From contig NZ_AWFF01000024.1 of the NCBI RefSeq assembly GCF_000682755.1, positions 1 through 64,000 on the forward strand: a stretch of 64,000 nt of DNA. Reading direction: 5' to 3'. Below are positions 7,743 to 11,802 of this stretch, in pieces (position 1 is the stretch's first letter; each line of letters begins with the position of its first letter). The notes under the pieces are model-generated. The model made no database searches. It had not been told where the DNA came from and saw only the letters and a list, made by a program, of their open reading frames with translations. The DNA comes from Hyphomonas beringensis (GTDB taxonomy: Bacteria > Pseudomonadota > Alphaproteobacteria > Caulobacterales > Hyphomonadaceae). The translations under genes were made by a program, and so were the position numbers.

Positions 7743-8453
7743 TCAATAAATCTCGTCAAGAATCTTTGCTGCACTGCGCAATAAAGACAATGAGTTGCGC
7801 GCTTCGCCGGTCCAGTCAGCGCGCGTGGACACTGCAAGAACGGCCTCGCTTTTCAGAATAACCCCGTCCGACAACACTTTCAGGCCGTTGGCCCTAAGGG
7901 TTGCCCCTGTTGACGTGATATCGACGATTACATCCGCAGAGCCTGTGGCGGGCGCAGCTTCGGTCGCCCCGGCGCTTTCGACAAGACGATATTCCCCGAC
8001 TGATTTGGCCGCGAAGAAGCGGCGCGTGAGTCGCATGTATTTCGTTGCGACTCGCAGGCGGCGGTGATGCGCCTTGCGGAAAGCAGCGCCAGCGGCCTCC
8101 AGATCCGACATCGTGTCGACATCCAGCCAGGCCTGCGGAACAGCAACAATGACGTCCGCGCCGCCAAAGCCGAGGCGTTCGGCAATCCGGAACTCGGCAT
8201 CGCCCGTGGGAGACAGATCCTGCAGCAGGTCTTCGCCCGTCACGCCGGCATGGATCGTGCCGTCAATCAGGCCCTGCGCGATCTCTCGGGCCGAGAGGAG
8301 ACGCATGTCGACCTGCCCCAGCCCGTCAATCTCGGCCTGATAGCCGCGCTCCCCACCGATCTGGCGAATGGGAAAGCCCTGCTCGCGGAACCAGTCTTCC
8401 GTCTTTTCCTTCAGCCGCCCCTTGGACGGAATGGCGAGTGACAGGATGCTCAT
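7743..8453 (-). CDS. hisG: ATP phosphoribosyltransferase, short form
   Basis: A 236-residue catalytic subunit of the short HisG type, lacking the C-terminal regulatory domain of the long form. It joins ATP and PRPP in the first step of histidine synthesis. Recognisable parts are Ile-Pro-Ser-Lys-Gly-Arg-Leu at the N-terminus and the PRPP-binding stretch Asp-Ile-Thr-Ser-Thr-Gly-Ala-Thr-Leu-Arg-Ala-Asn. Short HisG needs HisZ, which is encoded immediately upstream with a four-base ATGA overlap. The rest of the his operon is not in this window. Confidence 0.92.
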   Translation of the reverse strand: MSILSLAIPSKGRLKEKTEDWFREQGFPIRQIGGERGYQAEIDGLGQVDMRLLSAREIAQGLIDGTIHAGVTGEDLLQDLSPTGDAEFRIAERLGFGGADVIVAVPQAWLDVDTMSDLEAAGAAFRKAHHRRLRVATKYMRLTRRFFAAKSVGEYRLVESAGATEAAPATGSADVIVDITSTGATLRANGLKVLSDGVILKSEAVLAVSTRADWTGEARNSLSLLRSAAKILDEIY

Positions 8454-9580
8454 GCCGTCTCTCCCTTTGCACGCAGGATACGATCCGGGCGGACCATGCC
8501 GCCTATGCCCGACGCAGAAGCGCGCGAGCGGGACAGGCCTTCGATCAAGCCATCATACCGCCCACCAGACGCAAGAGGCTGGCGAGAGGTGAGGTTCTGC
8601 CCGAAGGTCTCAAAAACGAAGCCGTCATAATAGGTGAAGCGACGCCCGAAGCCGGAGCGGAACCGGGCCTCGTCTGCAATGGAGGGCATGGCGGCCAGGA
8701 TCGCCTCCATGCGCCGCGCAATCCGCTCGATGACGGAAGACACGGAACTGAGGCCATGCTTGTCAGCAATCTGCTGCAGCACATCTGCAGCTTGCGCCGC
8801 CGGGCAATTTACTTCCGCTAGGTCTGACAGGGCTGCCCGCGCCGCGTCCGGCACACCGCCCGCATCATGCACAGCCGCCTTGCCGCGCAGACCGGCAATG
8901 ATCTCTGCCTCGCTGCGCGTGCCGATCATGGGAATGCCCCGTGCTTCAAGCACTTTGCGGAACTCGGTCTCTGCGGCCTTGGCGCCATTGGCGTCCAGCG
9001 TGGCCTGCAGGTCTGCGTCAACGGCCTGCGGCGCTGCCACGAGCAACTCGCCCACGCCGCCCTCCTGCCGAAAGGCGCGTTTCAGCAGATCCGTCGTGAT
9101 ACGGGCCAGGCCCAGAGCATCGACAAAAGCCGGGAATACGGAAAGGTCGCCCATCTCGGTCGCCGTGGGGGTGACGTCACAGGCGGCCACGGCTTCGCGC
9201 ACCAGCGTGAAGGCCTCGGCATCTGCCTCCGGTGTTCTGTCGCGGCCGAACCATTCGAAACCGACCTGAGTGAACTCCATCGGATCATTATCCGTGGCCG
9301 GAAGGCGGAAAGCGCGCGCGGCATAGGTATAGGCTTTTGCGCCATCGCCGCCAGCGGCGCGGCGCTCTGCCTCCTGCCCCGCCACAGGCAGGGTCAGGTC
9401 TGGCCGCATGACCATTTCCGTACCGCGATGATCGGAGAACACGCACAGGCGGGCGCGCACAGCCTCACCTGACAGCTCAAGCGGAATATCCGACGGAAGA
9501 ACATAGGCCGGATCAATGCGCTCTGCGCCCGTTGCCTCAAAGACACCGCGCGCTGCGGTTACCAGCGCATCCTGTGTCAT
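8450..9580 (-). CDS. hisZ: ATP phosphoribosyltransferase regulatory subunit
   Basis: A 376-residue catalytically inactive paralogue of class II histidyl-tRNA synthetase that forms a hetero-octamer with short HisG and gives histidine feedback inhibition. Motif-2-like Arg-Pro-Asp-Leu-Thr-Leu-Pro-Val and Phe-Thr-Gln-Val-Gly-Phe-Glu are visible, with the HisZ-type Gly-Gly-Arg-Tyr-Asp-Gly-Leu near residue 345. It overlaps hisS upstream and hisG downstream by four bases each, so the three are one translationally coupled unit. Confidence 0.88.
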   Translation of the reverse strand: MTQDALVTAARGVFEATGAERIDPAYVLPSDIPLELSGEAVRARLCVFSDHRGTEMVMRPDLTLPVAGQEAERRAAGGDGAKAYTYAARAFRLPATDNDPMEFTQVGFEWFGRDRTPEADAEAFTLVREAVAACDVTPTATEMGDLSVFPAFVDALGLARITTDLLKRAFRQEGGVGELLVAAPQAVDADLQATLDANGAKAAETEFRKVLEARGIPMIGTRSEAEIIAGLRGKAAVHDAGGVPDAARAALSDLAEVNCPAAQAADVLQQIADKHGLSSVSSVIERIARRMEAILAAMPSIADEARFRSGFGRRFTYYDGFVFETFGQNLTSRQPLASGGRYDGLIEGLSRSRASASGIGGMVRPDRILRAKGETA

Positions 9581-11061
9581 GCCTGGGCCTCGACAATCTT
9601 GCGCACAGCTTCGACCATTTCGCCGCGTGGCACCTCGATCTGGCCGGGGCGGGCCTCGCGGTATTCCTCATTGGACTTGATGGCCTTTGCCTTCAGCGCG
9701 CCCATTTCAAGATCCTTGATCGTGACCGTACCCTTGGCGATCTCGTCCTCGCCGACCATGACAACGGCTGGGGAGCCGCGGCGGTCGGCATATTTCATCT
9801 GCTTACCCATATTGTTCGCGCCGCCCATATAGGCCTCCGCGCGCAGACCTGCAGCACGCAGTTCCGCAGCCGTGGAAAGCGCAACGGACGGGTTGTCCCG
9901 GTCCAGGCTGAGCACGACGACCGGACCATCCAGCTTCGGTGTCTCGTCCATGATCGCCAGCGCCGCAGCAAGCCGCGAAATGCCGATGGAGAAGCCGGTG
10001 GCCGGAACGCTCTGGCCCGTAAAGCGGGCGACGAGATCATCATAGCGCCCGCCGCCGCCAATAGAACCGATGCGATAGGTCTTGCCATCATCGCCGGTCA
10101 CTTCGCGTAGCAGCTCTGCCTCATAGACCGGGCCGGTATAATATTCGAGGCCGCGCACAACCGACGGATCGATCACGACATCGCCCTCTGGAGCGCCGAG
10201 CGCTTCGAGGGCCTTGGCGATGGCTTCCAGCTCAACCAGCCCGGCCTTGCCTTCTTCTGTATCGCCGGTGGCCTTGGTGAGGTTGGCGAGGGTCTCGGCA
10301 CGGGTATCAGCGCCCGCCTGCGCGAAGGCCAGCACACGCTTGACCTCTTCCGCACCGAGGCCTGCACCTTTCGTATAGTCACCGCTCTCATCCATGCGGC
10401 CTTCGCCGAGCAAGTCTGCGACGCCTTCAATGCCGAGGCGGTCCAGCTTGTCCAGCGCGCGCAGGATGGCGAGGCGGGTGTCGGGATTGGAGGCCCCTAC
10501 CCCGTCCAGCACACCATTGAGCAGGCGGCGGGTGTTCACGCGGATCACGAACTCGCCCGTCTCCATGCCGACTGCGCGCAGCGCTTCGGCGCCCATCGCG
10601 ATCATCTCGGCATCGGCGTGATAGCCCGGCGCGCCAATCGTATCGGCATCGCACTGCCAGAATTCGCGGAACCGTCCGGGGCCCGGCTTCTCATTGCGCC
10701 AGACCGGACCGGCCGCATAGCGGCGGAACGGACGGCCGAGCGACTGACCCGCCTCTGCCACGAAACGGGCGAGCGGCGCGGTCAGATCATAGCGCAGCGC
10801 CATCCATTGCTCATCATCATCCTGGATCGAGAAGACACCGGCATTCGGGCGGTCGGCATCGGGCAGGAATTTGCCCAGCGCGTCGGCATATTCGAATGCG
10901 CCGGTCTCCAGCGCCTCGAAGCCCCATTTGCGGTAAACGCCGGTGATCGTCTCAACCAGTTTCGCCTGAGACTGGATCAGAGCCTCGCGCTTGTCGGGGA
11001 AGCCCCGCGGCTTGCGGGCAAGTTGCTTACCGGTGAGGGGCTTTGGTTCCTTGTCACTCAT
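9577..11061 (-). CDS. hisS: Histidyl-tRNA synthetase, eukaryote-like type
   Basis: A 494-residue class II synthetase. Motif 2 reads Gly-Arg-Phe-Arg-Glu-Phe-Trp-Gln-Cys-Asp-Ala-Asp, and the histidine loop reads Gly-Leu-Glu-Tyr-Tyr-Thr-Gly-Pro-Val-Tyr-Glu. Both are closer to eukaryotic HisRS (Arg-Glu-Phe-Tyr-Gln-Cys-Asp) than to the usual bacterial Arg-Glu-Phe-His-Gln. An unusual HisRS of this kind is known in a clade of alphaproteobacteria whose tRNA-His lacks the extra G-1 base. It is first in the hisS-hisZ-hisG unit, preceded by a 174-base leader after the six-His peptide, so its expression is probably tied to histidyl-tRNA charging. Confidence 0.9.
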   Translation of the reverse strand: MSDKEPKPLTGKQLARKPRGFPDKREALIQSQAKLVETITGVYRKWGFEALETGAFEYADALGKFLPDADRPNAGVFSIQDDDEQWMALRYDLTAPLARFVAEAGQSLGRPFRRYAAGPVWRNEKPGPGRFREFWQCDADTIGAPGYHADAEMIAMGAEALRAVGMETGEFVIRVNTRRLLNGVLDGVGASNPDTRLAILRALDKLDRLGIEGVADLLGEGRMDESGDYTKGAGLGAEEVKRVLAFAQAGADTRAETLANLTKATGDTEEGKAGLVELEAIAKALEALGAPEGDVVIDPSVVRGLEYYTGPVYEAELLREVTGDDGKTYRIGSIGGGGRYDDLVARFTGQSVPATGFSIGISRLAAALAIMDETPKLDGPVVVLSLDRDNPSVALSTAAELRAAGLRAEAYMGGANNMGKQMKYADRRGSPAVVMVGEDEIAKGTVTIKDLEMGALKAKAIKSNEEYREARPGQIEVPRGEMVEAVRKIVEAQA

Positions 11062-11197
11062 GTCTCTTCAGGTCCTGGTTGCCGACGCGCCCCGCATAGA
11101 CGGAGACGGCCGTATTGGGAAGACAACACACCGAAGAAGCCCGAAGCCGGAGCAGCTCGCCTCATCTTTTCTGGTTCTGGAGAATGAACACTGTGAA

Positions 11198-11235
11198 GAA
11201 GGCGCAGCCGGACCGGTTCGCGCCTCGTCGGCGCG
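11198..11235 (-). promoter_or_regulatory. his leader competing hairpins
   Basis: Read on the minus strand, the leader stop codon abuts a six-pair stem (11230-11235 with 11219-11224, five-base loop). The 3' arm of that stem can instead pair, over seven positions including one G-U, with 11199-11205. Mutually exclusive stems next to a run of histidine codons are the hallmark of attenuation. I see no U-tract after the second stem, so control might be Rho-dependent or translational rather than by an intrinsic terminator. Confidence 0.45.
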
Positions 11236-11274
11236 TCACGCGTGATGATGATGGTGGTGCAGCATCGTGTTCAT
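11236..11274 (-). CDS. his leader peptide (six consecutive His codons)
   Basis: Twelve codons, Met-Asn-Thr-Met-Leu-His-His-His-His-His-His-Ala and a TGA stop, 174 bases upstream of hisS on the same strand. The codons CAC CAC CAT CAT CAT CAC lie at 11242-11259. There is no Shine-Dalgarno sequence, but the predicted promoter puts the transcript start about two bases before the ATG, so it would be translated as a leaderless message. Histidine starvation or uncharged tRNA-His would stall the ribosome on the run and change the downstream folding. The role is inferred from arrangement and composition. Confidence 0.8.
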   Translation of the reverse strand: MNTMLHHHHHHA

Positions 11275-11282
11275 TGCGGTGG

Positions 11283-11311
11283 CGGATACTGAGCACGGCC
11301 GGGAAAGTCAA
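11283..11311 (-). promoter_or_regulatory. Promoter of his leader/hisS
   Basis: On the minus strand TTGACT (11306-11311) is followed after 17 bases by TATCCG (11283-11288). This fits the alphaproteobacterial housekeeping pattern of a good -35 and a loose -10. The expected transcription start is near 11276, immediately before the leader ATG at 11274. Confidence 0.5.
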
Positions 11312-11325
11312 CCGGCACGGCCGGG

Positions 11326-11802
11326 TCAGGCGCCCTTGTCAGGCCGGATGAAAGGCTTTTCCTGGCCTTCCCGGCGCTCGATCACCTTGAAGATGCCTGT
11401 GCCGCGCATCAGCAACTTTTCCCCGGTATAGATGCGGCCCTCGACCGTGAAGACATCCTCCTGACGACCGACAATGGTGCCGTGTCCCTCAACAAAGCTG
11501 CCAAGCGGCGCGCCGGATAGAAAGTCACACATCAGGCGGACCGTGACCCACCAGGTGTCCTCATCATTCTCGACGGCCGCGCCCCAGGCCATGTCCGCGA
11601 ACGTCATCAGCATGCCGCCATGGGCGTTCATCATGCCATTTGTGTGGTGTTCTTCCACGCGGAAGGCACGCCGCAGCAGGCCGTTCTCGTCACGCTTTTC
11701 AAACAGGGGGCCAATCTGGCGGCCAAAACCGCGATGCCATGGCAAGGTTGAATAGCCGGCAGGCAGATCATCCGTCTGGTTTTTGGTAAGATCGTCACTC
11801 AT
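11326..11802 (-). CDS. PaaI-type hotdog thioesterase
   Basis: A 158-residue hotdog protein with the PaaI/DUF4442-like core [18 protein letters not shown] at about 54-71. The Asn/His/Gly-Gly and Asp residues are the usual active-site set. It probably hydrolyses an acyl- or aryl-CoA in the cytoplasm; the substrate cannot be read from the sequence. The ATG at 11802 is chosen because sequence upstream loses the family pattern. It is 49 bases downstream of the ABC1 kinase gene on the same strand. Confidence 0.78.

Follow-up and report, generated by a model that had tools for sequence, protein, structure and literature searches.

The window analysed here, a stretch of 64,000 nucleotides from Hyphomonas beringensis, carries a short open reading frame with six consecutive histidine codons, followed by the genes hisS, hisZ and hisG, the whole arrangement lying on the minus strand (Table 1). 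The ATG of the short frame stands 213 nt upstream of hisS and its stop codon 174 nt upstream of the hisS start, and the genes overlap by 4 nt at both the hisS/hisZ and the hisZ/hisG junction. A preliminary description of this DNA had taken hisS to be the first controlled gene, with hisZ and hisG behind it, and the genes do lie in this order. The best NCBIfam models for hisZ are all ATP phosphoribosyltransferase regulatory subunits, and all score under their curated cut-offs. The upstream neighbour, an ORF that encodes a thioesterase domain, has its end at 11326, leaving 14 nt to the leader promoter.

Table 1. Positions of the leader, the genes behind it and associated sequence elements in the window.
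Feature	Position	Strand	Basis
-35 hexamer TTGACT	11306..11311	(-)	TTGAC invariant in 55 aligned sequences
-10 hexamer TATCCG	11283..11288	(-)	TA invariant in 55 aligned sequences
Predicted transcription start	about 11276-11274	(-)	Expected from promoter spacing
Putative leader ORF MNTMLHHHHHHA and stop, 12 codons, six consecutive His	11236..11274	(-)	Direct reading; conservation with synonymous changes
Segment 1, CGCGCC, directly 3' of leader stop	11230..11235	(-)	Stop-abutting in 61/62
Segment 2, GAGGCGCG, common to hairpins 1:2 and 2:3	11219..11226	(-)	Pairing in alignment
Segment 3, GCGCCUU, 3' arm of terminator-like hairpin 2:3	11199..11205	(-)	96.6% of cells paired
Weak U-rich tail UUCUUC after hairpin 2:3	11195..11200	(-)	Read directly
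Segment 4, GAGGCGAGC, complementary to segment 3	11155..11163	(-)	Part of long imperfect inverted repeat
hisS, histidyl-tRNA synthetase	9577..11061	(-)	Pfam PF13393 and PF03129
hisZ, ATP phosphoribosyltransferase regulatory subunit (His-tRNA-synthetase-like)	8450..9580	(-)	Pfam PF13393; place between hisS and hisG
hisG, ATP phosphoribosyltransferase	7743..8453	(-)	Pfam PF01634

In the window 17 nt separate TTGACT from TATCCG, and a further 8 nt separate TATCCG from the leader ATG. With a start 6-8 nt past the -10 hexamer, the 5' UTR would measure only about 0-2 nt, and no Shine-Dalgarno motif precedes the ATG. The twelve-codon frame with its six histidine codons, the hexamers with their 17-nt spacing and the missing ribosome site are thus all as the preliminary description had them, and a start about two bases before the ATG is what the spacing predicts. 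The pattern ATG-N3..12-(CAY)5 occurs at two sites in the 3.8 Mb genome, the leader and one other. Between 10900 and 11500, upstream of the synthetase gene, neither the Rfam His_leader model nor the T-box model gives a match up to an E value of 5; the one Rfam match on the leader region, to a frameshift site, is there by chance.

Closer to hisS, at about 11130-11090 on the minus strand, lie two blocks, GYCTTYCCA and CTATGCGG, that are conserved just upstream of hisS in Hyphomonas. These may form a second, unattenuated hisS promoter. At two hisS loci that have no leader (L028 and L032) promoter-like hexamers can be seen by eye near the same position.

Distribution and conservation of the leader

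Of 105 genomes in the family, 100 yielded a HisS, and for 90 of these 100 the upstream region was read. Counting as a leader any short ORF with at least three histidine codons, we find 42 in the first 70 loci and 19 in the last 20 which, with one locus added by eye (L045, with two histidines), gives 62 of 90. The leader precedes hisS at 32 of 35 Hyphomonas loci (genus g1) and 28 of 28 Henriciella loci (g3), and at two of 27 in other genera, both of them belonging to g9 (UBA5336 type). It is missing at three of the 35 Hyphomonas loci and is therefore dispensable. On a tree of 44 HisS proteins the leader is present in Hyphomonas, Henriciella and the UBA5336 type, and absent in one g6 genome (L034) that branches beside Hyphomonas. 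One draft Henriciella genome (G026:C147:5441-6898; L089/L202) has a hisS frame with one internal TAG.

A covariance model (R1) was built on 55 of the 62 leaders, identical cores being left out. Among 398 genomes of the order it finds 62 strong places (E at most 1.1e-14), not an identical set to the 62 leaders at hisS loci, and all in three genera of the family; the next match has an E value of only 5.2e-5. Among 385 genomes of the class it is strong only in two, both of the window's own genus. In these order and class scans, as in any search over more than 40 genomes, the filters are stricter and weak matches are lost. A narrower sequence pattern gave 43 loci, with a HisS start downstream in 40 by an automatic check; six of the 43 were inspected singly. 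L236 and L237 are chance matches within genes, and L254 is the third of the 43 without a detected HisS start.

At least four histidines are kept in 57 of the 62 leaders, TGA is the stop codon in 57, and the distance from the stop to the HisS match ranges from 158 to 247 nt across the 62 loci. In the 55 leaders of twelve codons, every one of the six histidine positions is CAC in some sequences and CAT in others, and the commonest replacements are glutamine (10) and proline (7) codons. Such codon conservation suggests that the leader is translated. The promoter is constant in the same way: 17 nt is the best-scoring spacer in 62 of 62 leaders, under a script that allowed 16-20 nt, and the gap from the -10 hexamer to the ATG is 6-10 nt in all 62 and exactly 8 nt in 37. 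None of the 62 has GGAG, GAGG or AGGA at -16 to -5 of the leader ATG. Promoter spacing and the lack of a Shine-Dalgarno sequence fit a leaderless message in 62 of 62, and we regard it as probable that the leader is leaderless.

The preliminary description had made its proposal depend on the histidine run being conserved in relatives, and the run is indeed kept upstream of hisS at 62 of 90 family loci. A chance run within an ordinary hisS 5' UTR would account for the small size of the frame and for its absence at 28 of 90 loci, and for nothing else; it is refuted by conservation with synonymous codon changes, and we give it practically no weight, because peptide, promoter geometry and hairpins are kept while the histidine codons change synonymously.

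Alternative hairpins and a putative attenuator

Directly 3' of the leader stop codon lie, in order, segment 1, a short loop, segment 2, an inner stretch and segment 3. Segment 1 can pair with segment 2, and segment 2 with segment 3; since both hairpins use segment 2 they are mutually exclusive. Competing hairpins at the stop codon were already part of the preliminary description, and the alignment agrees, in that the pairing is mostly kept despite sequence change. Hairpin 1:2 pairs in 99.7% of alignment cells, with one double change from GC to AU, and hairpin 2:3 in 96.6%; the outermost 2:3 pair is GC in 41 sequences, GU in eight, AU in two, CG in one and other in three. The observed score for 1:2 is equalled by 27 of 500 shuffles, and the observed values for 2:3 by 2 to 262 of 500, depending on the measure. 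These covariation figures are modest, and pair changes few, because the leader core hardly varies. Segment 1 begins 0 nt past the stop codon in 61 of the 62 leaders, so the distance between the two looks to be under selection.

What the RNA prefers to form depends on how much of it is available. In the free short RNA, reaching to just past segment 3, the minimum-energy fold is 2:3 in 51 sequences, 1:2 in ten and neither in one; when the first 10 nt, segment 1 included, are masked, 2:3 forms in 61 of 62. For the window's own sequence the short RNA gives 1:2 when free and 2:3 when segment 1 is masked. When the RNA is extended to as much as 125 nt, a distant downstream partner takes segment 2 in 45 of 62 sequences, among them the window's, while 1:2 forms in 13 and 2:3 in one; the mean z is -2.3, with z below -2 in 32 of 62. 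The long imperfect inverted repeat to which segment 4 belongs would thus make a third folding state possible. For the duplex of segments 3 and 4, 25 of 62 sequences have no more than five equals among 100 shuffles, and the window itself has 25 among 100. We also considered a pairing between a loop and the Shine-Dalgarno sequence (GGUCC with GGACC), and dropped it since the partner is, by eye, absent in Henriciella.

Two features of an attenuator are present at the locus: a frame of histidine codons upstream on the same strand, and mutually exclusive hairpins placed so that the position of a ribosome could choose between them. We therefore propose that it is probably a ribosome-mediated attenuator of transcription with a leaderless leader peptide, which would be induced when charged tRNA-His is scarce; the proposal is built from comparative sequence analysis. 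As the spacing suggests, the RNA would start no more than about two bases from the leader ATG, and a ribosome would initiate on the bare AUG. When His-tRNA is charged, the ribosome would clear the six histidine codons and arrive at the stop, where its footprint would hide segment 1, leaving 2:3 to pair and termination to be favoured. When charged His-tRNA is scarce, the ribosome would stall in the histidine run with segment 1 free, and 1:2 would form first; segment 3 would then be left for downstream pairing, and the polymerase would read through into hisS-hisZ-hisG. The preference of the free short RNA for 2:3 in 51 of 62 sequences, and for 1:2 in just ten, means that starvation must trap 1:2 kinetically. 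For such a sensor to work, initiation on a bare AUG would have to be fast enough for the ribosome to keep pace with the polymerase. Leader-peptide control of hisS-hisZ-hisG, the central claim of the preliminary description, thus draws support from conservation, promoter geometry and hairpins, with attenuation as its probable form. Against an attenuator stand the lack of a strong U-tract, the preference for a long-range fold in 45 of 62 sequences, and the small number of pair changes.

The U-tract bears on how the putative switch would act. The preliminary description had seen none, and for this reason had doubted an intrinsic terminator. This needs correcting for the window, which has a weak UUCUUC at the edge of the interval then described, as its nearest relative (L005) has UUUUUC after segment 3; the doubt is thus less fair for the window itself, and fair for the genus as a whole, where the U-rich tail is weak in most other relatives and is not conserved. 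The eight bases past segment 3 contain two T in 21 sequences, three in 21, four in 13 and five in seven, so that 42 of 62 have just two or three. A terminator scan found no intrinsic terminator at segment 3, and none between segment 3 and hisS. A weak intrinsic terminator could be usable in the window's subclade, while Rho or some other route is as likely for the genus.

The same sensor could instead act through Rho-dependent termination or RNA decay, with the ribosome and the hairpins gating the loading of Rho. This alternative, which we consider possible although it is not the reading we favour, would suit a U-tract that is weak and not conserved, and the partial conservation of the sequence from segment 3 to hisS, where the scan sees no terminator. 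It does not explain as readily why the complementarity of segments 2 and 3 is preserved across three genera, as it would be in a terminator and antiterminator pair, or why UUCUUC or UUUUUC is present in the window and its nearest relatives.

tRNA genes behind leaders

At seven of the hisS loci ARAGORN identifies a tRNA-Gln gene (TTG) between the leader and hisS. The leaders concerned read MKTITHHHHQHM, MKTKLHHHHQQT, MNTQQHHHHQHS and MNTQQHHHHHS at L037, L041, L043 and L046 respectively, and MKTRLHHHHQQT three times, at L079, L084 and L086. Glutamine codons are thus present in the leader at seven of seven loci with the tRNA gene, and at one of 55 without it. The exception (L073) keeps QQ without a tRNA-Gln, and a decayed tRNA-like stretch can be seen there by eye; in Henriciella relatives without tRNA-Gln the leaders contain HHHHHHM, HHHHHHR or HHLHPKT. 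Fisher's test gives p 1.6e-8 with kinship ignored. On the tree each character changes three times, and of three independent pairs two agree and one shows no difference, so that a sign test (p 0.5) has too few events for significance. Leader codon content goes with the presence of tRNA-Gln, over few independent events. Strong matches to the leader tRNA-Gln occur in seven of 105 family genomes, one in each, at the hisS leader place. In G012 another tRNA-Gln (TTG) is among the 30 of 39 tRNA matches considered, which makes the leader copy an extra one; the two agree in 52 of 79 aligned columns.

These genes bear on a further alternative, in which control is translational and the leader switches between folds that hide and expose the hisS ribosome site. 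The long imperfect inverted repeat, which connects the leader hairpins with the sequence that separates the leader from hisS, would lend itself to this. The hisS start, however, lies 174 nt past the leader stop, the alignment shows by eye no conserved pairing to the hisS ribosome site, and in the seven relatives with glutamine codons in the leader it is a tRNA gene that intervenes between leader and hisS. Control of translation cannot regulate a tRNA, and a tRNA gene that comes next in the unit has no start codon to hide; the seven units therefore count against translational attenuation, which we think unlikely, and argue for a transcriptional output, and termination would be the output step that we favour.

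Leaders of similar design were found elsewhere by reading 20 weak R1 matches (L142-L161). In three Henriciella genomes a weak second match is a leader reading MRNRTLHHYYCT, MINMTLYYCCCS or MTKPLHTCCCL (L155, L157 and L158); these leaders are followed by tRNA-like sequences that ARAGORN misses and whose anticodon is GTA or GCA. In an alignment of ten such sequences the acceptor has 8 bp and the T stem 4 bp, no D stem is seen, and the D position forms a helix with the variable region. Pairing holds in 97.8% of cells, double changes occur in eight of 23 pairs, and the covariation score is higher than that of any shuffle. Of the Rfam families tRNA-Sec comes closest, with a score below its cut-off. 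Of 299 genomes of the order, 12 have strong matches to a model of these sequences (R2), ten being Henriciella and two of family f5; eight others have weaker matches (5e-5 to 1e-3), as does G251 at a second site. Two of the weak matches were read: that in G159 is a tRNA-Tyr recognised by ARAGORN and has a leader, and that in G277 is an ordinary-looking tRNA without one. At five loci (L155, L157, L269, L270 and L271) a recurring small protein, starting like MKYVRFQ and continuing with GIFQ, follows the tyrosine tRNA-like gene.

The remaining matches among these 20 were not taken as leaders. L142, L148-L153 and L161 are by their look the starts or insides of ordinary genes, and nothing leader-like was found on reading L147. 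In family f5, L143-L146 are ORFs starting MPEHHHHHHHHHW or MRENHHHHHHHHW, with a long histidine run at the start of a protein, which is not the attenuator design; in three Hyphomonas genomes (L154, L156 and L159) the match is to a protein with the C-terminal tail NTEPHHHHH. L160 (G086; family f1, genus g8) has TTGACC-17-TATCCC placed 9 nt before a leaderless-looking ORF reading MSTRFATARYRHASLT, upstream of tyrS (NCBIfam); that this is a tyrS leader is doubtful because it has a single tyrosine codon.

In all, ten leader units with tyrosine and/or cysteine codons precede 12 tRNA or tRNA-like genes, in Henriciella (L155, L157, L158, L166, L167, L170 and L270) and family f5 (L269, L271 and L273), most of them following a promoter of the TTGAC-17-TA type. 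By a hand-made list the leader contains the matching codon for 12 of the 12 genes, under a search that accepted at least two cysteines or tyrosines, or at least three histidines or glutamines, and so favours a match. L273 (G159, 1501-1588 minus) is a divergent tRNA-Tyr, recognised by ARAGORN, behind a leader with tyrosine codons, MITRFTYPLRYYSL, whose promoter is less clean, with a 14-nt spacer if TATCAT is the -10 hexamer. The correspondence has its exceptions: for a further three tRNA-like genes (G011, G004 and G029) the leader is decayed or missing, in G010 the leader has YYCCC and a cysteine gene alone was found, with a tyrosine remnant by eye, and in G022, G012 and G007 the leader has both codons and a tyrosine gene alone was seen. 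In the two genomes checked, ordinary copies exist beside those behind leaders, in that G012 also has an ordinary tRNA-Tyr and tRNA-Cys and G159 a second tRNA-Tyr. As controls, 30 tRNA-Tyr loci were fetched, two of them without a readable arm; among the 28 scored, an ORF with at least two tyrosines lies within 300 nt at the divergent G159 locus alone, and at none of the 27 others. The same loose test, applied to 18 ordinary tRNA genes of G012, gave four matches, for His (reading MHHGSSRRIIRETFS), Gly, Leu and Ser, but not one for Tyr, Cys or Gln.

Poly-histidine binds metals, and the run might thus belong to a small functional peptide rather than to a codon sensor. There is precedent for a leader peptide working in trans in peTrpL (PMC7298713). 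We think this most improbable, given that eight leaders contain glutamine, seven of them with tRNA-Gln in the unit, that similarly designed leaders use tyrosine or cysteine beside tRNA-Tyr or tRNA-Cys genes, and that in 61 of 62 leaders no base separates segment 1 from the stop codon.

Returning to a codon sensor, these units suggest a wider reading, for and against which we find the case evenly balanced: that the order has a class of leaderless 'codon probe' leaders, in which the codons match the content downstream and a stall switches on a backup tRNA for the codon concerned. A missing or uncharged tRNA would stall the ribosome, and the attenuator would then induce a divergent backup, tRNA-Gln (together with hisS) in Henriciella and the UBA5336 type, and tRNA-Tyr and tRNA-Cys without a D arm elsewhere. 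If so, attenuation would regulate tRNA genes and control the supply of tRNA itself, possibly so that a reserve exists when tRNAs are damaged.

Comparison with known systems

The enterobacterial hisL leader, which we take to be Rfam His_leader (RF00514), combines a run of histidine codons and the logic of a stalled ribosome with a ribosome site and a strong U-tract, and it controls the biosynthesis operon at hisG, whereas here the synthetase gene comes first. A synthetase operon attenuated by its own amino acid, phenylalanine, is known in E. coli pheM-pheST; the likeness lies in a leader that controls an aminoacyl-tRNA synthetase operon, but that leader is conventional, with a ribosome site and a terminator. 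Caulobacter, a related alphaproteobacterium, is nearer to hand, although the gene concerned is trpS and not hisS. Leaderless mRNAs number 375 there, and trpS is preceded by a small leader CDS, so that both common leaderless translation and a leader before a synthetase gene are found together; the term hisS has no occurrence in the main text of that report (PMC4117421).

The run of histidine codons and the stalled-ribosome logic shared with hisL are also described in PMC9413887, together with further his attenuators in Gram-positive bacteria. In Bacillus, histidine leader peptides stand before hisZ and before hisS*, a paralogue of hisS, which sets a precedent for such a leader ahead of a gene of the synthetase family; these are, however, Firmicutes systems, found through Rho-independent terminators, with hisS itself under a T-box, and the authors describe the leaders of Firmicutes and proteobacteria as without similarity (PMC2965389). 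A further likeness is trpL of Sinorhizobium meliloti, alphaproteobacterial again, where the RNA begins at the leader ATG of a short ORF with consecutive regulatory codons and alternative structures, and for which a terminator and a trans-acting sRNA are described; its codons are for tryptophan and precede trpE(G), while those described here are for histidine and precede hisS (PMC7298713).

For the tRNA-like genes, the non-canonical 8/4 tRNAs, such as the tRNA-Cys selC*, offer a parallel in the 8-bp acceptor and 4-bp T stem, and differ from the genes described here in that the latter have no D stem, pair the D position with the variable region and mostly lie behind matching leaders (PMC7609411). 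Judged by titles and the beginnings of abstracts in the full-text literature, which leaves subscription papers mostly outside, nothing beyond the four reports cited above (PMC2965389, PMC7298713, PMC4117421 and PMC9413887) is on point for hisS with alphaproteobacterial attenuation, for leaderless leaders or for a Hyphomonas leader peptide, and we found there no case of leader-controlled tRNA genes. Control of accessory tRNA genes by leaders may be a new arrangement.

Placed beside these systems, the hisS leader would be attenuation of a known kind in a new form. A synthetase operon under the sensor of its own tRNA charging is the simplest possible loop, and a leaderless leader without a ribosome site would be a minimal attenuator; the part most likely to surprise a specialist is the match between leader codons and tRNA genes.
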